Positions 8,762 to 64,000 of a stretch of DNA of 64,000 nucleotides are shown here, piece after piece. Positions within the stretch are counted from its first letter, which is position 1. Every line of letters starts with the position of its first letter. The stretch comes from Anadara kagoshimensis (Eukaryota > Mollusca > Bivalvia > Arcoida > Arcidae). Both the position numbers and the translations under genes were made by a program. The stretch covers positions 41,206,916 through 41,270,915 of the forward strand of contig CM037857.1 in assembly GCA_021292105.1 (NCBI GenBank), given 5' to 3'. The notes under the pieces are model-generated. The model did no database searches and was not told where the DNA came from. It saw only the letters and a program-made list of their open reading frames with translations.

Positions 8762-8763
8762 TA

Positions 8764-8973
8764 CAGACCTGTCGAAAGTTTAACACTGAACTAACGAAAA
8801 GGAGTCGAACTCTCGCTGCCGAGTGTCCGAGACATGGATAGCTAATGATCGAAGAAGCCGAGACGAAAAAGACGTTGTCAGGATATATAGCGAATGAGGC
8901 CGGGCCGAGATTAACTTCCCGGATTCGGTGCATTTAAATACGTTAGCTAAGTGATAAACTTTTGACAGGTTTG
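8764..8973 (+). mobile_element. Family A MITE, compact copy
   Basis: The left end is 'cagacctgtcgaaagtttaa' + 'cac', the right end is its inverse ('gtgataaacttttgacaggt' + 'ttg'), and TA lies on both sides. At 210 bp this is one of the shorter complete copies and serves here as a reference for the family. Its interior contains 'gatagctaatgatcgaag' (left-central) and 'gatatatagcgaatgagg' with 'ggtgcatttaaatacgttag' (right subterminal). Those two segments are the apparent sources of the 31-bp and 54-bp arrays elsewhere in the window. Confidence 0.85.
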
Positions 8974-8975
8974 TA

Positions 8976-13540: not shown

Positions 13541-14759
13541 AGCAACCTTGTCGAAAGTTCAACACTAATAAACAGACGAATTGGTGATGAATCGGGAATT
13601 TATCTCGGACTCTCGTTAGCTTTGTATCGACAACATTTTGGTAGCTGCTACATGTATATCTAGCTTTCGGCAGTTTTTTGGTCATAAGCTATCTCTTTAT
13701 CGAGTTTTTCGATCATAAGCTACCCTTTTCTCGAGTTTTCCGGTCATACGCTACCCCTTTCTCGAGTTTTCCGGTCATTAGCTATCCCTTTCTCGAGTTT
13801 TCCGGTCATTAGCTACCCCTTTCTCGAGTTTTCCGGTCATTAGCTACCCCTTTCTCGAGTTTTCCGGTCATTAGCTATCCCTTTCTCGAGTTTTCCGGTC
13901 ATTAGCTACCCCTTTCTCGAGTTTTCCGTCCGTCATTAGCTACCCCTTTCTCGAGTTTTCCGGTCATTAGCTATCACTTTCTCGAGTTTTTCCGGTCATT
14001 AGCTACCCCTTTCTCGAGTTTTCCGGTCATTTGCTATCCCTTTCTCGAGTTTTCCGGTCATTAGCTATCCCTTTCTCGAGTTTTCCGGTCATAAGCTACC
14101 CCTTTCTCGAGTTTTCCGGTCATTAGATACCCCTTTCTCGAGTTTTCCGGTCATTAGCTATCCCTTTCTCGAGTTTTCCGGTCATTAGCTACCCCTTTCT
14201 CGAGTTTTCCGGTCATTAGCTACCCCTTTCTCGAGTTTTCCGGTCATTAACTATCCTTTTCTCTTCTCGAGTTTTCCGGTCATAAGCTACCCCTTTCTCG
14301 AGTTTTCCGGTCATTAGATACCCCTTTCTCGAGTTTTCCGGTCATTAGATATCCCTTTCTCGAGTTTTCGGTCATTAGCTACCCCTTTCTCGAGTTTTCG
14401 GTCATTAGCTACCCCTTTCTCGAGTTTTCCGGTCATTAGCTATCCCTTTCTCGAATTTTTCGGTCATTAGCTACCCCTTTCTCGAGTTTTCCGGTCATTA
14501 GCTACCCCTCTCTCGAGTTTTCCGGTCATTAGCTATCCCTCTCTCGAGTTTTCCGGTCATTAGCTATCCTTTTCTCGAGTTTTTCGGTCATTATCTACCC
14601 CTCTTTCGAGTTTTTCGGTCATTAGCTACCCCTTTTTGAGTTTTTCGGTCATTAGCTCTCCCTTTCTCGAGTTTTTCGGTCATTAGCTCTCCCTTTCTCT
14701 CGACCAATCTACAGCAAAGTTTCGAATACTTTTTCCTCAGCTTACTTTCGACAGGGCTG
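13541..14759 (-). mobile_element. Family A MITE (minus orientation) expanded by a 31-bp array
   Basis: The left edge (about 13541-13590, with 'ccttgtcgaaagttcaacac' and 'gacgaattggtga') is the reverse complement of the right end of family A. The right edge ('cttactttcgacagggctgt', ending near 14760) is the reverse complement of its left end. So a complete but inverted copy surrounds the 31-bp array. The interior outside the array still shows family words such as 'ctcgttagct'. Flanking TA is not intact here. Confidence 0.75.
13670..14702. repeat. 31-bp tandem array, about 33 copies
   Basis: The unit is 'ctcgagttttccggtcatta' + 'gctacccctttt/c' (31 bp, with a CTCGAG site in most copies). Variants include ctatccc/ctacccc and ttttcc/tttttc. 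On the minus strand the unit contains 'ggtagctaatgacc(g)gaaaa', which closely matches 'ggatagctaatgatcgaag' inside the unexpanded family A copies at 8.8 and 30.5 kb. Edges are more diverged than the centre, as expected for an array growing by unequal exchange. Confidence 0.95.
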
Positions 14760-14760
14760 T

Positions 14761-15422
14761 GCATTTATGATATACCTCCGGATAAATCCAACTAAGTTAT
14801 AATTAGAAGCGACTTAAATTGTTAGACCTTCACATCTATAGACAATTTGGAACGTTTATCTTAGCCAAACGGAATTAAGTTTGAATTTCCTCTTTATCAC
14901 CGTGACTTTATCCTGGAATCGTCATCTAGTCGTCTACAATAAGTAGACATACAATGTTGCGTGCAATGCCAATCGTTGAGCGCTACTCAAGTTTAACAAT
15001 GTTGTACTGTTGCTCCAAGCAAAAAGACGAGTTTTTGGATAATAGATTTGAATGTCATGGGTTATCGTCAATATAAAGATGTATATTGTAACCAGTTTAT
15101 TTTCTGCCAAAACGAAAAATGTCATAGACGTAGATTTATACATGCTTATCTTTGAAACTCAATTTTTTACTGGAACATTTTCGAAATCAATTGGTACCGA
15201 TGACCAACAGTATATATCGAAAAATGCCGAATTACCTCGTGTCGAAAGTTATATCATTGCTTAAGTTGTTTAGAAAGAATTTTCGTCTTGTCTCCATTAG
15301 TTTCATTTGGTTACGGGACGAATCTAGTTAATCATACTAATCTAGCTAGTTCACCCTTTTTATTGGACTATTTCGTTTAACACAGATAGTTACAGCTCTG
15401 CTTTACTGATTAATAATTACAG
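14761..15422. other. Non-coding AT-rich stretch
   Basis: No supported gene. The two overlapping short ORFs here (14934-15143 minus, 15052-15264 plus) show no recognisable domain. Confidence 0.35.
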
Positions 15423-23149: not shown

Positions 23150-25385
23150 TGGACCATACCACTAGATACTCTAGCCACACCATAACACTTAAACATACCA
23201 CTGGCTACTACAAGCATGTGGTAGTACTTGGACCATACCACTGGAAACCATAAGTACGTTACTTGGACCGTTTCACTGGGAACAATAAGCACAAGGTAAT
23301 ATACATATAATACTTGGACCATACCGCTGGGAAGTATAATACTTGGACCATCCTACTTGGAAGTATAATACTTGAACCATACCACTGGGAAGTATAATAC
23401 TTGGACCATACCACTGGGAAGTATAATACTTGGACCATACCACTGGGAAGTATAATACTTGGACCATACCGCTGGGAAGTATAATACTTGGACCATCCTA
23501 CTGGGAAGTATATAAACACATAAAAATACTTGGACCATACCACTGGGAAGTATGATATTTGGACCATCCTACTGGGAAGTATATAAACACATAAAAATAC
23601 TTGAAACATACCACTGGGAAGTATAATACTTGGACCATCCTACTGGGAAGTATATAAACACATAAAAATACTTGGACCATACCACTGGGAGGTATAATAC
23701 GTGGACCATCCTACTAGGAAGTAAAATACTTGGACCATACCACTGGGAGGTATAATACTTGGACCATCCTACTGAAAAGTATAATACTTGGACCATACCA
23801 CTGGGAAGTATAATACTTGAACCATACCACTGGGAAGTATAATACTTGGACCATGTTACTGGGAAGTATTATACTTGGACCATACCACTGGGAAGTATAA
23901 TACTTGGACCATACCACTGGGAAGTATAATACTTGGACCATCCTACTGGGAAGTATATAAACACATAAAAATACTTGGACCATACCACTGGGAGGTATAA
24001 TACTTGGACCATCCTACTTGGAAGTATAATACTTGGACCATACCACTGGGAGGTATAATACTTGGACCATACCACTGGGAGGTATAATACTTGGACCATC
24101 CTACTGAAAAGTATAATACTTGAACCATGCCACTGGGAAGTAAAATACTTGGACTATGCCACTGGGAAGTATAATACTTGAACCATATCACTGGGAAGTA
24201 TAATACTTGGACCATACCACTGGGAAGTATAATACTTGAACCATGCCACTGGGAAGTATAATACTTGGATCATACCACTGGGAAGTATAATACTTGGACC
24301 ATGCCATTGGGAAGTATAATACATGGACCATGCCACTGGGAAGTATAATACTTGGACCATACCACTGGGAAGTATAATACTTGGACCATACCACTGCGAA
24401 GTATAATACTTGGACCATACCAATGGAAGTATAATACTTGGACCATGCCACTGGAAAGTATAACATCTTGATCATACCACTGGGAAGTATAATACTTGAA
24501 CCATACCACTGGGAAGTATAATACTTGAACCATGCCACTGGGAAGTATAATACTTGGACCATACCACTGGGAAGTATAATACTTAAACCATACCACTGGG
24601 AAGTATAATACTTGTACCATACCACTGGGAAGTATAATACTTGGACCATACCACTGGAAAGTATAACACTTTGATCATGCCACTGGGAAGTATAATACTT
24701 GGACCACACCACTGGAAGTATAATACTTGGACCATGCCACTGGGAAGTATAATACTTGGACCATACCACTGTGAAGTATAATACTTGAACCATACCACTG
24801 GGAAGTATAATACTTGAACCATGCCACTGGGAAGTATAATACTTGGACCATACCACTGGGAAGTATAATACTTGTACCATACCACTGGGAAGTATAATAC
24901 TTAGACCATACCACTGGAAAGTATAACACTTTGATCATGCCACTGGGAAGTATAATACTTGGACCACACCACTGGAAGTATAATACTTGGACCATGCCAC
25001 TGGGAAGTATAATACTTGGACCATGCCACTGGGAATTATAATACTTGGACCATACAATTCGGAAGTATAATACTTGAACCATGCCACTGGGAAGTATAAT
25101 ACTTGGACCATACCACTGGGAAGTATAATACTTGGACCATACCACTGGGAAGTATAATACTTGAACCATACCACTGGGAAGTATAATACTTGAACCATGC
25201 CACTGGGAAGTATAATACTTGGACCACACCACTGGGAAGTATAATACTTGAACCATACCACTGGGAAGTATAATACTTGAACCATGCCACTGGGAAGTAT
25301 AATACTTGAACCATACCACTGGGAAGTATAATACTTGAACCATACCACTGGGAAGTATAATACTTGGACCATACCATTTGGAAGT
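23150..25385. repeat. 29-bp tandem array, about 75 units
   Basis: The core unit is 'aagtataatacttggaccat' + 'accactggg'. Variants include tggacc/tgaacc, ataccac/atgccac and a longer form in the left third with 'tatataaacacataaaaata' inserted (23513, 23582, 23653, 23955). The left edge (23150-23330) is strongly diverged. A duplicated block is visible: about 24655-24720 and 24915-24975 both carry 'gtataacactttgatcatgc' followed by 'ggaccacaccactggaag'. Because 29 is not a multiple of 3 and the unit lacks stops on the minus strand, ORFs of up to 230 codons appear with an 87-bp period; these are not genes. Confidence 0.97.
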
Positions 25386-30450: not shown

Positions 30451-30452
30451 TA

Positions 30453-30660
30453 CAGACCTGTCGAAAGTTTAACACTGGGTTAACGAAAAGAGAGTCAAAA
30501 CTCGACTGCCGGGTGACCGAGATATGGATAGCTAGGGGTCGAAAAGCTGCTGAGAGGTAGATAGCAACTATCAAAACTTTTATAGCTAAGGGCGAGATAT
30601 GATTTGGCACCATTTCGTTAACTTTTTATTTTTTTTAGTTTTTTATTCAACCGTCACGTA
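30453..30660 (+). mobile_element. Family A MITE, right end degraded
   Basis: The left end 'cagacctgtcgaaagtttaa' + 'cac' is intact and preceded by TA. The interior 'gatatggatagctaggggtc' + 'gaaaagctgctgaga' and 'gcgagatatgatttggcacc' + 'atttcgttaac' matches the family. The right end is degraded beyond 'cgttaac', so the boundary is approximate. Confidence 0.75.
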
Positions 30661-36782: not shown

Positions 36783-36784
36783 TA

Positions 36785-37021
36785 CAGACCTGTCGAAAGT
36801 TCAACACCAAGCTAACAAAAAGGAGTCCAAGCTCTGATGACGAGTGGCTGAGATATCAATAGTCAGCGACTGAAAAGCTGACGAGAGATAGATAAAAGTT
36901 GTCGAGATATTGCTAATGAGGGACCGACGAGAGATAGATAAAAGTTGTCGAGATATTGCTAATGAGGGACCTATGTTAGGCACCAATTCGTAAGCTTATT
37001 GTTAAACGTTCGACATGCCTG
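36785..37021 (+). mobile_element. Family A MITE with a two-unit internal duplication
   Basis: The left end 'cagacctgtcgaaagttcaa' + 'cac' and the inverted right end 'gttaaacgttcgacatgcct' + 'g' are flanked by TA. Inside, 'gacgagagatagataaaagt' + 'tgtcgagatattgctaatga' + 'gggacc' occurs twice in tandem (about 36880-36924 and 36925-36971). The duplicated piece overlaps the region that became the 54-bp satellite at 49.8-64 kb. Confidence 0.88.
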
Positions 37022-37379
37022 TATTGTAGTCTGGTGTATATATATATCAACACACATGTCGTTATATAAATGTCCAACCGTTTCCTTGTGAGAATTTGAA
37101 TCAAACGTTACAATAAATTTCATAAAACTGGTTCCATATATAAAGAACGCGTTTTATTGCAAACCGAACACAACGCTACTGCTGTTGTTTAAATTTAAAT
37201 CCTGTGAAAGGAGTCTGGAGTTCTATTGGAAGTAAAAACTTAATATCAAATAATATCCAGCTCACACAATACACAATGGTTACCTGAAAGGTTTAAATAA
37301 AACATTACACAGAAACCCCAAAGCCAAAATCTTTATATGTAACAAATATTTAAAGTTTTTTCGATATACCGTTATTTAC
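37022..37379. other. Non-coding AT-rich stretch
   Basis: A short (AT)n lies near 37037. No gene is seen. Confidence 0.3.
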
Positions 37380-49650: not shown

Positions 49651-49840
49651 TTTTTCTAGTTTGGATTGTGATCGTAACAAAAGTCGGTCTCAATAATGCT
49701 AGGACTTCTGACCCTAACATGCTACACACTTTTACAGTACAGACCTGTCGAAAGTTTAACATTTAACTTAAAGAAAAGGAGCCAAACGACAAACGATATG
49801 GATTACTAATGACAAAAAAGCTGCCAAGAAGTTGAAATTC

Positions 49841-52800
49841 TGTTGAGATATAGTCAAAATGAGCTTTCAATTCAGCACTAATTTGTTAGTTTAGTGTTGA
49901 GATATAGTCAAAATAAGCTTTCAATTCAGCACTAATTTGTTAGTTTAGTATTGAGATATAGTCAAAATGAGCTTTCAATTCAGCACTAATTTGTTAGTTT
50001 AGTGTTGAGATATAGTCAAAATAAGCTTTCAATTCAGCACTAATTTGTTAGTTTAGTATTGAGATAAAGTCAATATAAGCTTTCAATTCAGCACTAATTT
50101 GTTAGTTTAGTGTTGAGATATAGTCAAAATAAGCTTTCAATTCAGCACTAATTTGTTAGTTTAGTGTTGAGATATAGTCAAAATAAGCTTTCAATTCAGC
50201 ACTAATTTGTTAGTTTAGTGTTGAGATATAGTCAAAATGAGCTTTCAATTCAGCACTAATTTGTTAGTTTAGTGTTGAGATATAGTCAAAATGAGCTTTC
50301 AATTCAGCACCAATTTGTTAGTTTAGTATTGAGATATAGTCAATATAAGCTTTCAATTCAGCACTAATTTGTTAGTTTAGTATTGAGATATAGTCAAAAT
50401 AAGCTTTCAATTCAGCACTAATTTGTTAGTTTAGTGTTGAGATATAGTCAAAATGAGCTTTCAATTCAGCACTAATTTGTTAGTTTAGTATTGAGATATA
50501 GTCAATATAAGCTTTCAATTCAGCACTAATTTGTTAGTTTAGTGTTGAGATATATAGTCAAAATGAGCTTTCAATTCAGCACTAATTTGTTAGTTTAGTA
50601 TTGAGATATAGTCAAATAAGCTTTCAATTCAGCACTAATTTGTTAGTTTAGTGTTGAGATATAGTCAAATAAGCTTTCAATTCAGCACTGATTTGTTAGT
50701 TTAGTGTTGAGATATAGTCAATATAAGCTTCAATTCCGCACTAATTTGTTAGTTTAGTATTGAGATATAGTCAAAATAGCTCTCATTCAGCACTGATTTG
50801 TTAGTTTAGTTTTGAGATATAGTCAAAATGAGCTTTCAATTCAGCACTAATTTGTTAGTTTAGTATTGAGATATAGTCAAAATGAGCTTTCAATTCAGCA
50901 CTAATTTGTTAGTTTAGTGTTGAGATATAGTCAAAATAAGCTTTCAATTCAGCACTAATTTGTTAGTTTAGTATTGAGATATAGTCAAAATAAGCTTTCA
51001 ATTCAGCACTAATTTGTTAGTTTAGTATTGAGATATAGTCAAAATGAGCTTTCAATTCAGCACTAATTTGTTAGTTTAGTATTGAGATATAGTCAAAATG
51101 AGCTTTCAATTCAGCACTAATTTGTTAGTTAAGTGGAGATATAGTCAAAATGAGCTTTCAATTCAGCACTAATTTGTTAGTTAGTGTTGAGATATAGTCA
51201 AAATGAGCTTTCAATTCAGCACTAATTTGTTAGTTAAGTGTTGAGATATAGTCAAAATGCTTTCAATTGCACTAATTTGTTAGTTTAGTATTGAGATATA
51301 GTCAAAATGAGCTTTCAATTTAGCACTAATTTGTTAGTTTAGTATTGAGATATAGTCAAAATGAGCTTTCAATTCAGCACTAATTTGTTAGTTAGTATTG
51401 AGATATAGTCAAAATGAGCTTTCAATTCAGCACTAATTTGTTAGTTTAGTATGAGATATAGTCAAAATGAGCTTTCAATTCAGCACTAATTTGTTAGTTT
51501 AGTATCGAGATATATAATAAAGCTTTCAATTCAGCACTAATTTGTTAGTTTAGTGTTGAGATATATCAAAATGAGCTTTCAATTCAGCACTAATTTGTTA
51601 GTTTAGTGTTGAGATATAGTCAAAATGAGCTTTCAATTCAGCACTAATTTGTTAGTTTAGTGTTGAGATATAGTCAAAATGAGCTTTCAATTCAGCACTA
51701 ATTTGTTAGTTTAGTATTGAGATATATAATAATGAGCTTTCAATTCAGCACTAATTTGTTAGTTTAGTATTGAGATATAGTCAAATAAGCTTTCAATTCA
51801 GCACTTTTGTTAGTTTAGTGTTGAGATATAGTCAAAATAAGCTTTCAATTCAGCACTATTTGTTAGTTTAGTATTGAGATATAGTCAATAAGCTTTCAAT
51901 TCAGCACTAATTTGTTAGTTTAGTATTGAGATATAGTCAATATAAGCTTTCAATTCAGCACTAATTTGTTAGTTTAGTGTTGAGCTATAGTCAATATAAG
52001 CTTTCAATTCAGCACTAATTTGTTAGTTTAGTGTTGAGATATAGTCAAAATAGCTTTCAATTCAGCACTAATTTGTTAGTTTAGTGTTGAGATATAGTCA
52101 AAATGAGCTTTCAATTCAGCACTAATTTGTTAGTTTAGTGTTTGAGATATAGTCAAATAAGCTTTCAATTCAGCACTAATTTGTTAGTTTAGTATTGAGA
52201 TATAGTCAAATAAGCTTTCAATTCAGCACTAAATTGTTAGTTTAGTGTTGAGATATAGTCAAAATGAGCTTTCAATTCAGCACTAATTTGTTAGTTTAGT
52301 GTGAGATATATAGTCAAAATGAGCTTTCAATTCAGCACTAATTTGTTAGTTTAGTGTTGAGATATATCAAAATGAGCTTTCAATTCAGCACTAATTTGTT
52401 AGTTTAGTATTGAGATATAGTCAAAATGAGCTTTCAATTCAGCACTAATTTGTTAGTTAGTATCGAGATATAGTCAAAATGAGCTTTCAATTCAGCACTA
52501 ATTTTTAGTTAGTGTCGAGATATAGTCAAAATGAGCTTTCAATTCAGCACTAATTTGTTAGTTTAGTGTTGAGATATAGTCAAAATAAGCTTTCAATTCA
52601 GCACTAATTTGTTAGTTTAGTATTGAGATATAGTCAATATGAGCTTTCAATTCAGCACTAATTGTTAGTTTAGTGTTGAGATATAGTCAAAATGAGCTTT
52701 CAATTCAGCACTAATTTGTTAGTTTAGTAATGAGATATAGTCAAAATGAGCTTTCAATTCAGCACTAATTTGTTAGTTTAGTATGAGATATATCAAATGA

Positions 52801-55800
52801 GCTTTCAATTCAGCACTAATTGTTAGTTTAGTGTTGAGATATAGTCAAAATGAGCTTTCAATTCAGCACTAATTTGTTAGTTAGTGTTGAGATATAGTCA
52901 AAATGAGCTTTCAATTCAGCACTAATTTCTTAGTTTAGTATCGAGATATAGTCAAAATAGCTTTCAATTCAGCACTAATTTGTTAGTTAAGTGTTGAGAT
53001 ATAGTCAATAAAGCTTTCAATTCAGCACTAATTGTTAGTTTAGTATTGAGATATAGTCAAAATGAGCTTTCAATTCAGCACTAATTTGTTAGTTTAGTAT
53101 TGAGATATAGTCAAAAGCTTTCAATTCAGCACTAATTTGTTAGTTTAGTGTTGAGATATAGTCAAAATGAGCTTTCAATTCAGCACTAATTTGTTAGTTA
53201 AGTGTTGAGATATAGTCAAAATAGCTTTCAATTCAGCACTAATTTGTTAGTTTAGTATCGAGATATAGTTAATATAAGCTTTCAATTCAGCACTAATTTG
53301 TTAGTTTAGTGTTGAGATATATCAAAATGAGCTTTCAATTCAGCACTAATTTGTTAGTTTAGTATTGAGATATAGTCAAAATGAGCTTTCAATTCAGCAC
53401 TAATTTGTTAGTTTAGTGTTGAGATATAGTCAAAATAGCTTTCAATTCAGCACTAATTTGTTAGTTTAGTATTGAGATATAGTCAATAGCTTTCAATTCA
53501 GCACTAATTGTTAGTTTAGTGTTGAGATATAGTCAAAATGCTTTCAATTCAGCACTAATTTGTTAGTTAGTATTGAGATATAGTCAATGAGCTTTCAATT
53601 CAGCACTAATTTGTTAGTTTAGTGTTGAGATATAGTCAAATAAGCTTTCAATTCAGCACTAATTTGTTAGTTTAGTATTGAGATATAGTCAAAAGCTTTC
53701 AATTCAGCACTAATTTGTTAGTTTAGTGTTGAGCTATAGTCAATATAAGCTTTCAATCAGCACTAATTTGTTAGTTTAGTTGAGATATAGTCAAAATAAG
53801 CTTTTAATTCAGCACTAATTTGTTAGTTTATGTTTGAGATATAGTCAAATGAGCTTTCAATTCAGCACTAATTTGTTAGTTTAGTGTTGAGATATAGTCA
53901 ATATAGCTTTCAATTCAGCACTAATTTGTTAGTTTAGTGTTGAGCTATAGTCAAATAGCTTTCAATTCAGCACTAATTTGTTAGTTTAGAGTTGAGATAT
54001 AGTCAAAATAAGCTTTCAATTCAGCACTAATTTGTTAGTTTAGTGTTGAGATATAGTCAAAATGAGCTTTCAATTCAGCACTAATTTGTTAGTTTAGTGT
54101 TGAGATATAGTCAAAATGAGCTTTCAATTCAGCACTAATTTGTTAGTTTAGTGTTGAGATATAGTCAAAATGAGCTTTCAATTCAGCACTAATTTGTTAG
54201 TTTAGTATTGAGATATAGTCAAAATAAGCTTTCAATTCAGCACTAATTTGTTAGTTTAGTGTTGAGATATAGTCAAAATGAGCTTTCAATTCAGCACTAA
54301 TTTGTTAGTTTAGTATTGAGATATAGTCAAATAGCTTTCAATTCAGCACTACTTTGTTAGTTTAGTATTGAGATATAGTGAAAAGCTTTCAATTCAGCAC
54401 TAATTTGTTAGTTTAGTATGAGATATAGTCAAAATGAGCTTTCAATTCAGCACTAATTTGTTAGTTTAGTGTTGAGATATAGTCAAAATGAGCTTTCAAT
54501 TCAGCACTAATTTGTTAGTTTAGTGTTGAGATATAGTCAAAATGAGCTTTCAATTCAGCACTAATTTGTTAGTTTAGTATTGAGATATAGTCAATATAAG
54601 CTTTCAATTCAGCACTAATTTGTTAGTTTAGTATTGAGATATAGTCAAAATAAGCTTTCAATTCAGCACTAATTTGTTAGTTTAGTGTTGAGATATAGTC
54701 AAAATAGCTTTCAATTCAGCACTAATTTGTTAGTTTAGTGTTGAGATATAGTCATAAGCTTTCAATTCAGCACTAATTTGTTAGTTAGTATTGAGATATA
54801 GTCAAAATAGCTTTCAATTCAGCACTAATTTGTTAGTTTAGTATTGAGATATAGTCAATATAAGCTTTCAATTCAGCACTAATTTGTTAGTTTAGTATTG
54901 AGATATAGTCAAAATAAGCTTTCAATTCAGCACTATTTGTTAGTTTAGTGTTGAGATATAGTCAAAATGAGCTTCAATTCAGCACTAATTTGTTAGTTTA
55001 GTGTTGAGATATAGTCAAAATGAGCTTTCAATTCAGCACTAATTTGTTAGTTTAGTATTGAGATATAGTCAATATAGCTTTCAATTCAGCACTAATTTGT
55101 TAGTTTAGTATTGAGATATAGTCAAATAAGCTTTCAATTCAGCACTAATTTGTTAGTTTAGTATTGAGATATAGTCAAAATAAGCTTTCAATTCAGCACT
55201 AATTTGTTAGTTTAGTTGAGATATAGTCAAAATAGCTTTCAATTCAGCACTAATTTGTTAGTTTAGTGTTGAGATATAGTCAAAATAGCTTTCAATTCAG
55301 CACTAATTTGTTAGTTTAGTATTGAGATATAGTCAAATGAGCTTTCAATTCAGCACTATTTGTTAGTTTAGTATTGAGATATAGTCAAAATAGCTTTCAA
55401 TTCAGCACTAATTTGTTAGTTTAGTGTTGAGATATAGTCAAAATGAGCTTTCAATTCAGCACTAATTTGTTAGTTTAGTATTGAGATATAGTCAAATAAG
55501 CTTTCAATTCAGCACTAATTTTGTTAGTTTAGTGTTGAGATATAGTCAAAATGAGCTTTCAATTCAGCACTGATTTGTTAGTTTAGTGTTGAGATATAGT
55601 CAAATAAGCTTTCAATTCAGCACTTATTTGTTAGTTTAGTGTTGAGATATAGTCAAAATGAGCTTTTAATTCAGCACTAATTTGTTAGTTTAGTATTGAG
55701 ATATAGTCAATATAAGCTTTCAATTCAGCACTAATTTGTTTTAGTGTGTTGAGATATATAGTCAAAATGAGCTTTCAATTCAGCACTAATTTGTTAGTTT

Positions 55801-58800
55801 AGTGTTGAGATATAGTCAAAATAAGCTTTCAATTCAGCACTTTTTGTTAGTTTAGTGTTGAGATATATCAAAATGAGCTTTCAATTCAGCACTAATTTGT
55901 TAGTTAAGTATTGAGATATAGTCAAAATAAGCTTTCAATTCAGCACTAATTTGTTAGTTTAGTATTGAGATATAGTCAAAATAGCTTTCAATTCAGCACT
56001 ATTTGTTAGTTTAGTATTGAGATATAGTCAATATAAGCTTTCAATTCAGCACTAATTTGTTAGTTTAGTATTGAGATATAGTCAAAATAAGCTTTGAATT
56101 CAGCACTAATTTGTTAGTTTAGTGTTGAGATATAGTCAAAATGAGCTTTCAATTCAACACTAATTTGTTAGTTTAGTATTGAGATATAGTCAAAATGAGC
56201 TTTCAATTCAGCACTAATTTGTTAGTTTAGTATTGAGATATAGTCAAAATGAGCTTTCAATTCAGCACTAATTTGTTAGTTTAGTATTGAGATATAGTCA
56301 AAATGAGCTTTCAATTCAGCACTAATTTGTTAGTTTAGTGTTGAGATATAGTCAAAATGAGCTTTTAATTCAGCACTAATTTGTTAGTTTAGTATTGAGA
56401 TATAGTCAATATAAGCTTTCAATTCAGCACTAATTTGTTAGTTTAGTGTTGAGATATATAGTCAAAATGAGCTTTCAATTCAGCACTAATTTGTTAGTTT
56501 AGTGTTGAGATATATAGTCAAAATGAGCTTTCAATTCAGCACTAATTTGTTAGTTTAGTATTGAGATATAGTCAATATAAGCTTTCAATTCAGCACTAAT
56601 TTGTTAGTTTAGTATTGAGATATATAGTCAAAATGAGCTTTCAATTCAGCACTAATTTGTTAGTTTAGTATTGAGATATAGTCAAAATGAGCTTTCAATT
56701 CAGCACTAATTTGTTAGTTTAGTATTGAGATATAGTCAATATAAGCTCTTAATTCAGCACTAATTTGTTAGTATAGTGTTGAGATATAGTCAAAATAAGC
56801 TTTCAATTCAGCACAAATTTGTTAGTTTAGTATTGAGATATAGTCAATATAAGCTTTCAATTCAGCACTAATTTGTTAGTTTAGTGTTGAGATATAGTCA
56901 AAATAAGCTCTCAATTCAGCACTAATTTGTTAGTTTAGTGTTGAGATATAGTCAAAATGAGCTTTCAATTCAGCACTAATTTGTTAGTTTAGTATTGAGA
57001 TATAGTCAATATAAGCTTTCAATTCAGCACTAATTTGTTAGTTTAGTATTGAGATATAGTCAAAATAAGCTTTGAATTCAGCACTAATTTGTTAGTTTAG
57101 TGTTGAGATATAGTCAAAATGAGCTTTCAATTCAACACTAATTTGTTAGTTTAGTATTGAGATATAGTCAAAATGAGCTTTCAATTCAGCACTAATTGTT
57201 AGTTTAGTATTGAGATATAGTCAAAATGAGCTTTCAATTCAGCACTAATTTGTTAGTTTAGTATTGAGATATAGTCAAATGAGCTTTCAATTCAGCACTA
57301 ATTTGTTAGTTTAGTGTTGAGATATAGTCAAAATGAGCTTTAATTCAGCACTAATTTGTTAGTTTAGTATTGAGATATAGTCAATATAAGCTTTCAATTC
57401 AGCACTAATTTGTTAGTTTAGTGTTGAGATATATAGTCAAAATGAGCTTTCAATTCAGCACTAATTGTTAGTTTAGTGTTGAGATATATAGTCAAAATGA
57501 GCTTTCAATTCAGCACTAATTTGTTAGTTAGTATTGAGATATAGTCAATATAAGCTTTCAATTCAGCACTAATTTGTTAGTTTAGTATTGAGATATATAG
57601 TCAAAATGAGCTTTCAATTCAGCACTAATTTGTTAGTTTAGTATTGAGATATAGTCAAAATGAGCTTTCAATTCAGCACTAATTTGTTAGTTTAGTATTG
57701 AGATATAGTCATATAAGCTCTTAATTCAGCACTAATTTGTTAGTATAGTGTTGAGATATAGTCAAAATAAGCTTTCAATTCAGCACAAATTTGTTAGTTT
57801 AGTATTGAGATATAGTCAATATATTCTTTCAATTCAGCACTAATTTGTTAGTTTAGTTGAGATATAGTCAAATAAGTCTCAATTCAGCACTAATTTGTTA
57901 GTTTAGTGTTGAGATATAGTCAAAATGAGCTTTCAATTCAGCACTAATTTTAGTTTAGAATTGAGATATAGTCAATATAAGCTTTCAATTCAGCACTAAT
58001 TTGTTAGTTTAGTGTTGAGATAATCAAAATGAGCTTTCAATTCAGCACTAATTTGTTAGTTTAGTGTTGAGATATATAGTCAAAATGAGCTTTCAATTCA
58101 GCACTAATTTGTTAGTTTAGTGTTGAGATATAGTCAAAATAGCTTTCAATTCAGCACTAATTTGTTAGTTTAGTATTGAGATATAGTCAAATGAGCTTTC
58201 AATTCAGCACTAATTTGTTAGTTTAGTGTTGAGATATAGTCAAAATGAGCTTTCAATTCAGCACTAATTTGTTAGTTTAGTATTGAGATATAGTCAAATA
58301 AGCTTTCAATTCAGCACTAATTTGTTAGTTTAGTGTTGAGATATAGTCAAAATGAGCTTTCAATTCAGCACTAATTTGTTAGTTTAGTATTGAGATATAG
58401 TCAAAATGAGCTTTCAATTCAGCACTAATTTGTTAGTTTAGTATTGAGATATAGTCAAAATGAGCTTTCAATTCAGCACTAATTTGTTAGTTTAGTGTTG
58501 AGATATAGTCAAAATAGCTTTCAATTCAGCACTAATTTGTTAGTTTAGTATTGAGATTAGTCAAATAAGCTTTCAATTCAGCACTAATTTGTTAGTTTAG
58601 TGTTGAGATATAGTCAAAATGAGCTTTCAATTCAGCACTAATTTGTTAGTTTAGTGTTGAGATATAGTCAAAATGAGCTTTCAATTCAGCACTAATTTGT
58701 TAGTTTAGTGTTGAGATATAGTCAAAATGAGCTTTCAATTCAGCACTAATTTGTTAGTTTAGTGTTGAGATATAGTCAAAATGAGCTTTCAATTCAGCAC

Positions 58801-61800
58801 TAATTTGTTAGTTTAGTATTGAGATATAGTCAATATAAGCTTTCAATTCAGCACTAATTTGTTAGTTTAGTTGAGATATAGTCAAAATGCTTTCAATTCA
58901 GCACTAATTTGTTAGTTTAGTGTTGAGATATAGTCAAAATGAGCTTTCAATTCAGCACTAATTTGTTAGTTTAGTATTGAGATATAGTCAATATAAGCTT
59001 TCAATTCAGCACTAATTTGTTAGTTTAGTGTTGAGATATAGTCAAAATGAGCTTTCAATTCAGCACTAATTTGTTAGTTTAGTGTTGAGATATAGTCAAA
59101 ATGAGCTTTCAATTCAGCACTAATTTGTTAGTTTAGTATTGAGATATAGTCAAAATAAGCTTTCAATTCAGCACTAATTTGTTAGTTTAGTGTTGAGATA
59201 TAGTCAAAATGAGCTTTCAATTCAGCACTAATTTGTTAGTTTAGTGTTGAGATATAGTCAAAATGAGCTTTCAATTCAGCACTAATTTGTTAGTTTAGTA
59301 TTGAGATATAGTCAAAAGCTTTCAATTCAGCACTAATTTGTTAGTTTAGTGTTGAGATATAGTCAAAATGAGCTTTCAATTCAGCACTAATTTGTTAGTT
59401 TAGTGTTGAGATATAGTCAAATGAGCTTTCAATTCAGCACTAATTTGTTAGTTTAGTATTGAGATATAGTCAATATAAGCTTTCAATTCAGCACTAATTT
59501 GTTAGTTTAGTGTTGAGATATAGTCAATAAGCTTTCAATTCAGCACTAATTTGTTAGTTTAGTATTGAGATATAGTCAAAATAAGCTTTCAATTCAGCAC
59601 TAATTTGTTAGTTTAGTATTGAGATATAGTCAAAATGAGCTTTCAATTCAGCACTAATTTGTTAGTTTAGTATTGAGATATAGTCAAATAAGCTTTCAAT
59701 TCAGCACTAATTTGTTAGTTTAGTATTGAGATATAGTCAAAATGAGCTTTCAATTCAGCACTAATTTGTTAGTTTAGTATTGAGATATAGTCAAAATGAG
59801 CTTTCAATTCAGCACTAATTTGTTAGTTTAGTGTTGAGATATAGTCAAAATGAGCTTTCAATTCAGCACTAATTTGTTAGTTTAGTGTTGAGATATAGTC
59901 AAAATGAGCTTTCAATTCAGCACTAATTTGTTAGTTTAGTATTGAGATATAGTCAAATAAGCTTTCAATTCAGCACTAATTTGTTAGTTTAGTATTGAGA
60001 TATAGTCAATATAAGCTTTCAATTCAGCACTAATTTGTTAGTTTAGTGTTGAGATATAGTCAAAATGAGCTTTCAATTCAGCACTAATTTGTTAGTTTAG
60101 TATTGAGATATAGTCAAATAAGCTTTCAATTCAGCACTAATTTGTTAGTTTAGTATTGAGATATAGTCAATAAGCTTTCAATTCAGCACTAATTTGTTAG
60201 TTTAGTATTGAGATATAGTCAAAATGAGCTTTCAATTCAGCACTAATTTGTTAGTTTAGTATTGAGATATAGTCAAATAAGCTTTCAATTCAGCACTAAT
60301 TTGTTAGTTTAGTGTTGAGATATAGTCAAAATAAGCTTTCAATTCAGCACTAATTTGTTAGTTTAGTGTTGAGATATAGTCAAAATGAGCTTTCAATTCA
60401 GCACTAATTTGTTAGTTTAGTATTGAGATATAGTCAAAATAAGCTTTCAATTCAGCACTAATTTGTTAGTTTAGTGTTGAGATATAGTCAAAATGAGCTT
60501 TCAATTCAGCACTAATTTGTTAGTTTAGTATTGAGATATAGTCAAAATGAGCTTTCAATTCAGCACTATTTGTTAGTTTAGTGTTGAGATATAGTCAAAA
60601 TGAGCTTTCAATTCAGCACTAATTTGTTAGTTTAGTATTGAGATATAGTCAAAATAGCTTTCAATTCAGCACTAATTTGTTAGTTTAGTATTGAGATATA
60701 GTCAAATAAGCTTTCAATTCAGCACTAATTTGTTAGTTTAGTGTTGAGATATAGTCAAAATAAGCTTTCAATTCAGCACTAATTTGTTAGTTTAGTGTTG
60801 AGATATAGTCAAAATAAGCTTTCAATTCAGCACTAATTTGTTAGTTTAGTATTGAGATATAGTCAAAATAAGCTTTCAATTCAGCACTAATTTGTTAGTT
60901 TAGTGTTGAGATATAGTCAAAATGAAGCTTTCAATTCAGCACTAATTTGTTAGTTTAGTATTGAGATATAGTCAAAATAAGCTTTCAATTCAGCACTATT
61001 TGTTAGTTTAGTGTTGAGATATAGTCAAAATGAGCTTTCAATTCAGCACTAATTTGTTAGTTTAGTATTGAGATATAGTCAATAAGCTTTCAATTCAGCA
61101 CTAATTTGTTAGTTTAGTATTGAGATATAGTCAAAATGAGCTTTCAATTCAGCACTAATTTGTTAGTTTAGTATTGAGATATAGTCAAATAGCTTTCAAT
61201 TCAGCACTAATTTGTTAGTTTAGTATTGAGATATAGTCAAAATGAGCTTTCAATTCAGCACTAATTTGTTAGTTTAGTATTGAGATATAGTCAAAATGAG
61301 CTTTCAATTCAGCACTAATTTGTTAGTTTAGTATTGAGATATAGTCAAAATGAGCTTTCAATTCAGCACTAATTTGTTAGTTTAGTGTTGAGATATAGTC
61401 AAAATGAGCTTTCAATTCAGCACTAATTTGTTAGTTTAGTATTGAGATATAGTCAATATAAGCTTTCAATTCAGCACTAATTTGTTAGTTTAGTATTGAG
61501 ATATAGTCAATATAAGCTTTCAATTCAGCACTAATTTGTTAGTTTAGTGTTGAGATATAGTCAAAATGAGCTTTCAATTCAGCACTATTTGTTAGTTTAG
61601 TATTGAGATATAGTCAAATAAGCTTTCAATTCAGCACTAATTTGTTAGTTTAGTATTGAGATATAGTCAATATAAGCTTTCAATTCAGCACTAATTTGTT
61701 AGTTTAGTATTGAGATATAGTCAAAATAAGCTTTCAATTCAGCACTAATTTGTTAGTTTAGTGTTGAGATATAGTCAAAATAGCTTTCAATTCAGCACTA

Positions 61801-64000
61801 ATTTGTTAGTTTAGTATTGAGATATAGTCAAAATAAGCTTTCAATTCAGCACTAATTTGTTAGTTTAGTATTGAGATATAGTCAAAATGAGCTTTCAATT
61901 CAGCACTAATTTGTTAGTTTAGTATTGAGATATAGTCAAAATAAGCTTTCAATTCAGCACTAATTTGTTAGTTTAGTATTGAGATATAGTCAAAATGAGC
62001 TTTCAATTCAGCACTAATTTGTTAGTTTGTATTGAGATATAGTCAATATAAGCTTTCAATTCAGCACTAATTTGTTAGTTTAGTATTGAGATATAGTCAA
62101 AATGAGCTTTCAATTCAGCACTAATTTGTTAGTTTAGTATTGAGATATAGTCAAAATGAGCTTTCAATTCAGCACTAATTTGTTAGTTTAGTATTGAGAT
62201 ATAGTCAAAATGAGCTTTCAATTCAGCACTAATTTGTTAGTTTAGTATTGAGATATAGTCAAAATAAGCTTTCAATTCAGCACTAATTTGTTAGTTTAGT
62301 GTTGAGATATAGTCAAAATGAGCTTTTAATTCAGCACTAATTTGTTAGTTTAGTATTGAGATATAGTCAATATAAGCTTTCAATTCAGCACTAATTTGTT
62401 AGTTTAGTGTTGAGATATATCAAAATAGCTTTCAATTCAGCACTAATTTGTTAGTTTAGTGTTGAGATATAGTCAAATGAGCTTTCAATTCAGCACTAAT
62501 TTGTTAGTTTAGTATTGAGATATAGTCAAATAAGCTTTCAATTCAGCACTAATTTGTTAGTTTAGTGTTGAGATATAGTCAAAATGAGCTTTCAATTCAG
62601 CACTAATTTGTTAGTTTAGTATTGAGATATAGTCAAATAAGCTTTCAATTCAGCACTAATTTGTTAGTTTAGTATTGAGATATAGTCAAAATAAGCTTTC
62701 AATTCAGCACTAATTTGTTAGTTTAGTGTTGAGATATAGTCAAATAAGCTTTCAATTCAGCACTAATTTGTTAGTTTAGTGTTGAGATATAGTCAAAATA
62801 AGCTTTCAATTCAGCACTAATTTGTTAGTTTAGTGTTGAGATATAGTCAAAATGAGCTTTCAATTCAGCACTAATTTGTTAGTTTAGTATTGAGATATAG
62901 TCAAAATAGCTTTCAATTCAGCACTAATTTGTTAGTTTAGTATTGAGATATAGTCAAAATGAGCTTTCAATTCAGCACTAATTTGTTAGTTTAGTATTGA
63001 GATATAGTCAAATAAGCTTTCAATTCAGCACTAATTTGTTAGTTTAGTATTGAGATATAGTCAAAATGAGCTTTCAATTCAGCACTAATTTGTTAGTTTA
63101 GTATTGAGATATAGTCAAAATGAGCTTTCAATTCAGCACTAATTTGTTAGTTTAGTTTGAGATATAGTCAAAATGAGCTTTCAATTCAGCACTAATTTGT
63201 TAGTTTAGTGTTGAGATATAGTCAAAATGAGCTTTCAATTCAGCACTAATTTGTTAGTTTAGTATTGAGATATAGTCAAAATAGCTTTCAATTCAGCACT
63301 AATTTGTTAGTTTAGTATTGAGATATAGTCAAATAGCTTTCAATTCAGCACTAATTTGTTAGTTTAGTGTTGAGATATAGTCAAATGCTTTCAATTCAGC
63401 ACTAATTTGTTAGTTTAGTATTGAGATATAGTCAATATAAGCTTTCAATTCAGCACTAATTTGTTAGTTTAGTATTGAGATATAGTCAATATAAGCTTTC
63501 AATTCAGCACTAATTTGTTAGTTTAGTATTGAGATATAGTCAAAATAAGCTTTCAATTCAGCACTAATTTGTTAGTTTAGTGTTGAGATATAGTCAAAAT
63601 AAGCTTTCAATTCAGCACTAATTTGTTAGTTTAGTGTTGAGATATAGTCAAAATAAGCTTTCAATTCAGCACTAATTTGTTAGTTTAGTATTGAGATATA
63701 GTCAAAATGAGCTTTCAATTCAGCACTAATTTGTTAGTTTAGTATTGAGATATAGTCAAAATAAGCTTTCAATTCAGCACTAATTTGTTAGTTTAGTATT
63801 GAGATATAGTCAAAATGCTTTCAATTCAGCACTAATTTGTTAGTTTAGGTATTGAGATATAGTCAAATAAGCTTTCAATTCAGCACTAATTTGTTAGTTT
63901 AGTATTGAGATATAGTCAAAATAAGCTTTCAATTCAGCACTAATTTGTTAGTTTAGTATTGAGATATAGTCAAAATAGCTTTCAATTCAGCACTAATTTG
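49841..64000. repeat. 54-bp satellite, about 265 copies, continues past the window
   Basis: The unit is 'ttgagatatagtcaaaatga' + 'gctttcaattcagcactaat' + 'ttgttagtttagt(g/a)' (54 bp). Main variants are gtgttgag/gtattgag and aatgagc/aataagc/atataagc. Single-base and short deletions are concentrated at 'gtcaaaatgagc'; the 3' half of the unit ('tcaattcagcactaatttgt') is far more constant. The monomer corresponds to the right subterminal part of family A up to 'agtgtt', the inner edge of its right end. The array has no ORF of note and covers more than a fifth of the window. Confidence 0.98.
56030..57800. repeat. Duplicated block of about 975 bp inside the 54-bp satellite
   Basis: Rare variants recur in the same order at a fixed offset: 'agctttgaattcag' at 56090 and 57069, 'caattcaacacta' at about 56150 and 57128, 'aagctcttaattcag' at 56743 and 57715 with 'gttagtatagtg' just behind, and 'cagcacaaatttg' at about 56810 and 57782. 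The offset is 972-978 bp, i.e. 18 monomers. The second copy has extra single-base deletions. Confidence 0.88.

Follow-up and report, generated by a model that had tools for sequence, protein, structure and literature searches.

Satellite DNA is widely held to arise from transposons, and often only the spread-out end product is visible. Among the described cases, excerpts of reviews present satellites born from miniature inverted-repeat transposable elements (MITEs), namely Xstir and miDNA4, along with proposed mechanisms (PMC12628747, PMC9659126). Here, we analyzed a stretch of 64,000 nucleotides of the bivalve Anadara kagoshimensis (C1:41,206,916-41,270,915; hereafter the window) together with the rest of its assembly, a search space of 1.115 Gb in 36 contigs. 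In this stretch, one copy of a MITE family, family A, contains a long array of a 54-bp tandem unit; the monomer is the MITE's own sequence, and the array lies inside one insertion. Within one genome, the same family is present as unexpanded copies, a copy with two units, intermediates with 16-33 units and the 300-unit array, framed by element ends, and these stages of satellite birth can be compared side by side. Because the stages coexist, and because one insertion is found with 2 units in one assembled copy and 29 in the other, the rate of satellite birth, the choice of segment and the mechanism become directly measurable.

In Xenopus tropicalis, a satellite is driven by miDNA4, a MITE of the Tc1/mariner type (Scalvenzi and Pollet 2014, via PMC12628747, PMC9659126). 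As far as the review passages describe it, it resembles the present case in that the MITE carries one to many internal units, with the array inside the element and microhomology proposed as the trigger; whereas miDNA4 involves one captured unit, the repeated unit here comes from the subterminal sequence of the MITE itself, and different copies have many different segments expanded. According to the same partial accounts, Xstir and Xmix of Xenopus (Hikosaka and Kawahara 2004, via PMC12628747, PMC9659126) likewise comprise MITE-derived tandem repeats and composite MITE-array structures, but they form a single repeat family, in contrast to the array here, which is confined to a single insertion and closed off at either side by its ends. 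The foldback transposon Tetris and the TIR-220 satellite of Drosophila virilis, in the available part of their description, exemplify satellite growth in a foldback element (PMC4079207): the satellite comes from tandem repeats in the terminal repeats, and allelic copies of 3 and 4 units can be likened to the situation here. The 54-bp array differs from Tetris in being one-sided and located just inside the outermost end; a different family A copy has foldback-like arms. In bivalves, the Pearl/CvA MITE-like elements and the HindIII/BIV160 satellites, as outlined in a section of one review (PMC9659126), also link satellites to non-autonomous elements; these are set apart from family A, with its 40-bp terminal inverted repeats and TA flanks, by description and not by sequence. 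The portions of the open-licence literature that were covered contain no description of one MITE family yielding many different satellite units from different segments, and no array private to one closed MITE insertion was apparent in them. MITE-born satellites and foldback elements are already known; what is new, as a variant of these, is that a single family seeds many different satellites in place.

The majority consensus of family A is 217 bp long and was built from 19 copies with strongly diverged interiors, 5 bases at each end being added from printed ends; the maps of units given below rest on it. Its terminal inverted repeats (TIRs) are ~40 bp in length, with 39 of the first 40 positions equal between the ends. 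Matches to the family end at ≤1 mismatch numbered 36,881 genome-wide, ends within arrays counted, and 0 in the control. Short, present in many copies and bounded by TIRs, the family is a MITE, and at 217 bp it is too short for coding a transposase. TA followed by CAGTACAGACC was found at most of 75 printed ends, which were taken from 20 of 21 sources (L066, full of tandem ends, was left out) and include a few rows that are chance matches or array units; the conserved terminus reads TA-CAGTACAGACCTGTCGAAAGTTTAAC. The TA is probably the target-site duplication. The ends appear Tc1/mariner-like, the CAGT-type start being what we take to be a mark of that superfamily. The 40-bp TIRs and TA flanks do not fit Helitron/Helentron elements, whose ends are without terminal inverted repeats.

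At the element with the 54-bp array, the left family end is located at 49738-49756 with 0 mismatches to the family-end pattern, which matched the window 8 times at ≤3 mismatches versus 0.01 expected; the conserved terminus (CAGTACAGACC..., with TA before it) begins 5 bases outside 49738. The left MITE part (49733-49842, forward strand) consists of the TA target-site dinucleotide at 49733-49734, the left terminal repeat CAGTACAGACCTGTCGAAAGTTTAAC... and the interior up to the first monomer. From there, Tandem Repeats Finder (TRF) detected a head-to-tail array on the forward strand from 49843 to the window end at 64000 (94% matches). Analysis of 60 kb fetched from near the window end onward revealed that the array runs beyond the window edge and stops at window-equivalent ~66110 (L009 ~3110), giving a total of 16,267 bp, which corresponds to ~301 units by length, or to 305 segments by wrap-around alignment with partial ones counted. 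No reverse-strand monomer words were seen in the array region, indicating a single orientation. The last monomer passes directly into AACTTTTGACAG, the family right end, followed by a second MITE of ~265 bp and then by ACTGTA. The usual right end of the family is GACAGGTCTGTACTG-TA, and its final bases and the TA are kept at the array element, whose right end (window-equivalent ~66111-66397; L009 3111-3397; forward strand, outside the window) is split by the second MITE and ends in ACTG-TA. This second MITE, with inverted ends like GCCCC(A/G)GTTTCACAATC, sits in the right terminal repeat at window-equivalent ~66124-66389, its borders having been read by eye. The second MITE, with ends like CAGGCCCCGGTTTCACAATC, was also observed inserted inside another family A copy (L071). 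The entire TA-flanked insertion spans ~49733-66397, and no monomers were found directly outside the MITE ends in the flanks on either side. An earlier note on this stretch had described a satellite of at least 14 kb that is entered through an intact family A left end at 49740, and had raised the question of whether a family A right end closes it; the description holds, and the array is closed by such an end, interrupted by the second MITE.

The relation of the monomer to the MITE was analyzed by aligning the doubled monomer to 12 family copies not chosen by array similarity, in comparison with 500 dinucleotide shuffles; copies found by array similarity (L004, L005, L006 and L008) and two L041 copies nearly identical to L038 copies were excluded. 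The summed score was 389, against a shuffle mean of 233.6 (sd 14.7, maximum 309). In 9 of the 12 copies, at most 10 of the 500 shuffles scored as well, and in 5 of those 9 none did. For two of the nine significant copies, the inverted repeat on the other strand gave the best match; among the remaining seven, there were five in which precisely 20 bases separated the end of the match from the right end of the copy as extracted. On the 19-copy consensus, the best local match of the unit is 151-194, and the monomer can be aligned colinearly with the right subterminal region of copies that are not expanded. The unit stops 20-23 bp before the right terminus usual for the family, and thereby takes in the inner portion of the TIR. 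The note's proposal that the monomer aligns with the right subterminal part of family A was thus borne out by the shuffles, whereas its statement that the unit ends exactly where the right TIR begins was not, since the TIR is ~40 bp long and its inner part lies inside the unit. With a monomer derived from a MITE, the array is a MITE-derived satellite, and both the shuffle test and the right-end closure favor the suggested origin by amplification inside one insertion.

A 50-base monomer pattern at ≤3 mismatches yielded 427 matches genome-wide, all on the forward strand, and 0 in the control. The window array contains 191 of these and a second assembled copy of it 236, exactly 427 together, and the placement of all matches rests on this sum; on that basis, no monomers occur outside family A at this threshold. 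Weaker similarity to the family exists elsewhere in the genome, as expected. At ≤3 mismatches and in this assembly, the 54-bp array is a private satellite of one insertion, unlike classical satellite DNA with unit arrays at several loci, as it comprises one array and its second assembled copy. These data also bear on the idea that the satellite is older than the MITE, which would have inserted into or captured a pre-existing array. For miDNA4 in Xenopus, the model put forward in a review is that a tandem repeat already in existence was captured (PMC12628747), but the monomer here shares homology with the right subterminal segment of the MITE itself, at the same place, and monomers are present neither elsewhere at ≤3 mismatches nor directly outside the MITE ends. 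The simple form of capture is refuted by these observations, and capture in general is extremely unlikely. Origin of the 54-bp array in place from the MITE is, in our judgment, very probable.

The second assembled copy of the array is located ~200.4 kb upstream on the same contig. The left flanks of the two copies differ by 5 mismatches and 9 gaps over 4,416 columns, and the right flanks by 0 mismatches and 7 gaps over 4,859 columns; the arrays themselves are colinear end to end with no indel >5 bp, and differ by 139 substitutions and 234 small gaps. On a larger scale, C1:41,041,900-41,077,499 was observed to be a second presence of window 36.7-71 kb, near-identical around the 54-bp array. Near the array, this looks like either one sequence assembled twice (an unpurged haplotype) or a very recent duplication. 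The presence of the stretch twice in the contig ~200 kb apart could be taken as a sign that the array length or the right-end closure is a mis-join, and the 234 small gaps between the array copies point to a noisy consensus; an artefact of this kind is nevertheless very unlikely, as the two assembled copies (16,267 and 16,324 bp), which are perhaps not independent of each other, agree in their ends and flanks, and analogous closed arrays exist at other loci.

Within the array, the 305 rows of the wrap-around alignment revealed three polymorphic monomer sites, position 16 (A 258, T 44), position 19 (G 152, A 114, 39 gaps) and position 54 (A 160, G 138), with few substitutions at other sites and gaps at homopolymers. 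Autocorrelation of exact monomer types exhibited no prominent lag that would indicate a higher-order repeat, and the longest internal repeats are not the same in the two assembled copies, so that no higher-order organization is claimed. A block of ~18 monomers appeared by eye to be repeated in one assembled copy only. A monomer hairpin was considered as a trigger and rejected, because dimer folding was no better than that of shuffles (z -1.05; 27 of 200 shuffles as good). Uniform head-to-tail arrays with so few substitutions apart from the three polymorphic sites would also be produced by small circles copied by rolling circle and returned to the MITE by homology, instead of by slippage or unequal exchange in place. 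Such circles should, however, also enter other copies with homologous segments, and the 54-bp unit is found only here at ≤3 mismatches; we consider this route unlikely.

Comparison of copies across the genome shows that one family has repeatedly expanded different segments of its own in place, which is new relative to known MITE-born satellites. The unit sizes expanded in different copies include 25, 31, 43, 46, 52, 54, 58, 63 and 78 bp, among others, and the best matches of doubled units on the consensus were 1-39, 2-57, 1-77, 19-46, 70-117, 64-150, 140-185, 151-194 and 153-203. Several of the arrays were found by resemblance to a query, and the list therefore shows range and not frequency. 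A complete element (L007) contains 16 units of 52 bp, and element L040, one of whose ends was identified by eye, contains 19 units of 25 bp. Arrays of 58 bp are present on C5, one of which begins at a degenerate right end (first monomer abutting, by eye). In a 58-bp right-subterminal satellite at C5:46.951-46.964 Mb, the same succession of listed unit variants reappears after ~4.0 kb, which points to a possible higher-order repeat. Of two 63-bp arrays, that at C1:7.68 Mb is closed by the other family end and that at C1:7.70 Mb was seen on one side. End arrays of 78 bp occur in several places on C7 (23.96 and 24.89 Mb) and C16 (5.9-10.5 Mb). At the two C7 loci the shared sequence extends past the element, so a larger block seems to have been copied. 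The copy at C1:824.6-827.8 kb (L017-L036) carries 53 direct left-end repeats of 43 bp and 21 right-end repeats of 41-43 bp with a short middle, and is a foldback-like element, which the 54-bp array, expanded on one side only, is not. At C1:44,103,300-44,106,100 (L096, L097), a 42-43-bp end array is followed by family interior and then by a second array. The latter looks like the mid-element segment of the 31-bp array in the window.

Exact tandem pairs of an end 16-mer numbered 2,404 at periods of 33-63 and 3,294 at periods of 64-94, a range that also counts doubles of short periods, and the reversed-pattern control gave 0 in both; among the matches listed (100 places, all on C1), these pairs form 21 clusters, 15 of them with two or more pairs. 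We also sampled ~460 bp at 20 loci, comprising all 16 exact matches to the 54-base left end and the first 4 one-mismatch matches. Tandem left ends were present at 4 of the 20, all on C16 (3 within the stretch and 1 by neighbouring matches), and a duplicated right end at 3 (two probably related loci; one partly by eye); the other 13 exhibited neither in the ~460-bp stretch. Eight end arrays on C1 were fetched on both sides. The opposite family end closes three of them by pattern, and a degenerate end was recognized by eye in two more, one of which (5.111 Mb) shares its flank with a pattern-closed array at 5.032 Mb. One array runs into family interior with a second array, one had no edge assignment, and at the edge of one, at C1:22.999 Mb, there is a CA repeat instead of a family end.

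For the 54-bp array, we infer a course in which a 217-bp TA-flanked MITE inserted at the locus, and the 54-bp segment just inside its right end would have been duplicated in tandem by slippage, template switching or end-joining at the flanking 4-bp TGTT (...CTGTT|GAGATAT and ...GTGTT|CAAC). The array would then have grown in place to ~300 units by unequal exchange or related copying, staying private to the insertion, and other family copies have expanded other segments, the terminal repeats included, which yields foldback-like elements. Slippage with unequal exchange has, as the route, about an even chance of being correct. A different route would be transposase-driven repair, in which the break left by MITE excision is refilled by copying the sister, and internal segments are duplicated when this copying slips. 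Such repair would account for arrays that mostly remain between the ends and for the frequency with which the family forms them, and it agrees with the location of arrays inside element ends at most edges seen and with units drawn from nearly every part of the element. On the other hand, no autonomous transposase was found (no search aimed at one was made), window arrays unlike the family indicate that tandem growth is common in the region anyway, and the C1:22.999 Mb array has its edge at the CA repeat; the well-kept left ends at the sampled loci carry no weight, because the loci were selected by that end. Taken together, we regard the repair route as rather unlikely. Equally tentative is a broader possibility, to which we likewise give a minor chance, that the family is a general satellite nursery in which almost any stretch of the 217 bp can become a new array, repeatedly, independently and mostly between its own ends, via transposase excision and slip-prone gap refilling. 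If true, satellite birth would be a by-product of cut-and-paste transposition.

Several points weigh against amplification in place as outlined. Three of the 12 copies showed no significant monomer alignment (74, 337 and 391 of 500 shuffles as good), and the pre-array part of the element is, by eye, without some bases present in other copies, so that the sequence of the ancestor cannot be read off exactly. The microhomology at TGTT is a single instance that may have arisen by chance, and the 46-bp duplication described below is, by eye, without such microhomology. The CA-repeat edge at C1:22.999 Mb counts here as well. The array length rests on the assembly of one genome, the second array copy may be the same sequence assembled twice, and the 139 substitutions between the copies render fine variant patterns unreliable. 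An unexpanded allele of the 54-bp insertion was not found in the one genome searched.

Other copies of the family in the window comprise a complete unexpanded copy (8762-8975), a copy degraded in its right part, with a good left end (30451-30660), and a complete copy (36783-37023) with a 46-bp interior segment present twice by TRF (36880-36971), all on the forward strand, and a copy on the reverse strand (13541-14761) with 33 TRF units of a mid-element 31-bp sequence (13672-14699). Both ends of the last were recognizable by end patterns, at 13543 and at 14743-14761, the latter with 3 mismatches. Tandem repeats were accordingly found in three of the four window copies with both ends recognizable (31 bp ×33, 46 bp ×2 and the 54-bp array), the fourth being 8762-8975. 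The doubled 31-bp unit aligned to consensus 70-117; by score it is a weaker case (2 of 150 shuffles as good, z 3.2), and its array is assigned to the family because it is placed between two family ends.

At the 36.8-kb insertion, the window contains 2 units of 46 bp versus 29 units (1,328 bp) in the matching insertion ~201.7 kb upstream, both arrays being inside the same MITE element with matching flanks. The assembled copies diverge more beside this insertion than near the 54-bp array, with 12 mismatches in 553 aligned bases (~2%). Growth and contraction of the array are both possible, and the two may be alleles or paralogues. Other tandem arrays of the region also differ between the two assembled copies, and lability is therefore not special to the MITE. 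In the second copy (L089, C1:41,017,900-41,021,100), a 96-bp array of ~5 units was noted at 223-690, while window ~25.6-25.8 kb is without it in the TRF list.

Relatives of the family among the tandem arrays of the window were sought with 12 chosen TRF units and 150 shuffles each; simple repeats, alternative periods, the 94-bp repeat at 499 and several two-copy repeats were left out. The target set dropped 3 of the 19 family copies (two from L008, one from L015) and includes copies found by array similarity, so that the 54-bp score in it is not unbiased and the 12-copy test with 500 shuffles is the fairer one. For the 46-bp and 54-bp units, 0 of 150 shuffles were as good, whereas 8 of the 12 tested units exhibited no clear family signal (7 to 135 of 150 shuffles as good, the value of 7 belonging to the 56-bp unit at 1479). 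The unit of a 29-bp array at window 23306-25385 weakly resembles the family (1 of 150 shuffles, z 2.6), and no family ends were noticed at the edges of that array. Nine units from other loci were compared with the family in the same way; for four of them (L003, L015, L016 and L044) 93 to 142 of 150 shuffles were as good, and for the other five, 0 of 150.

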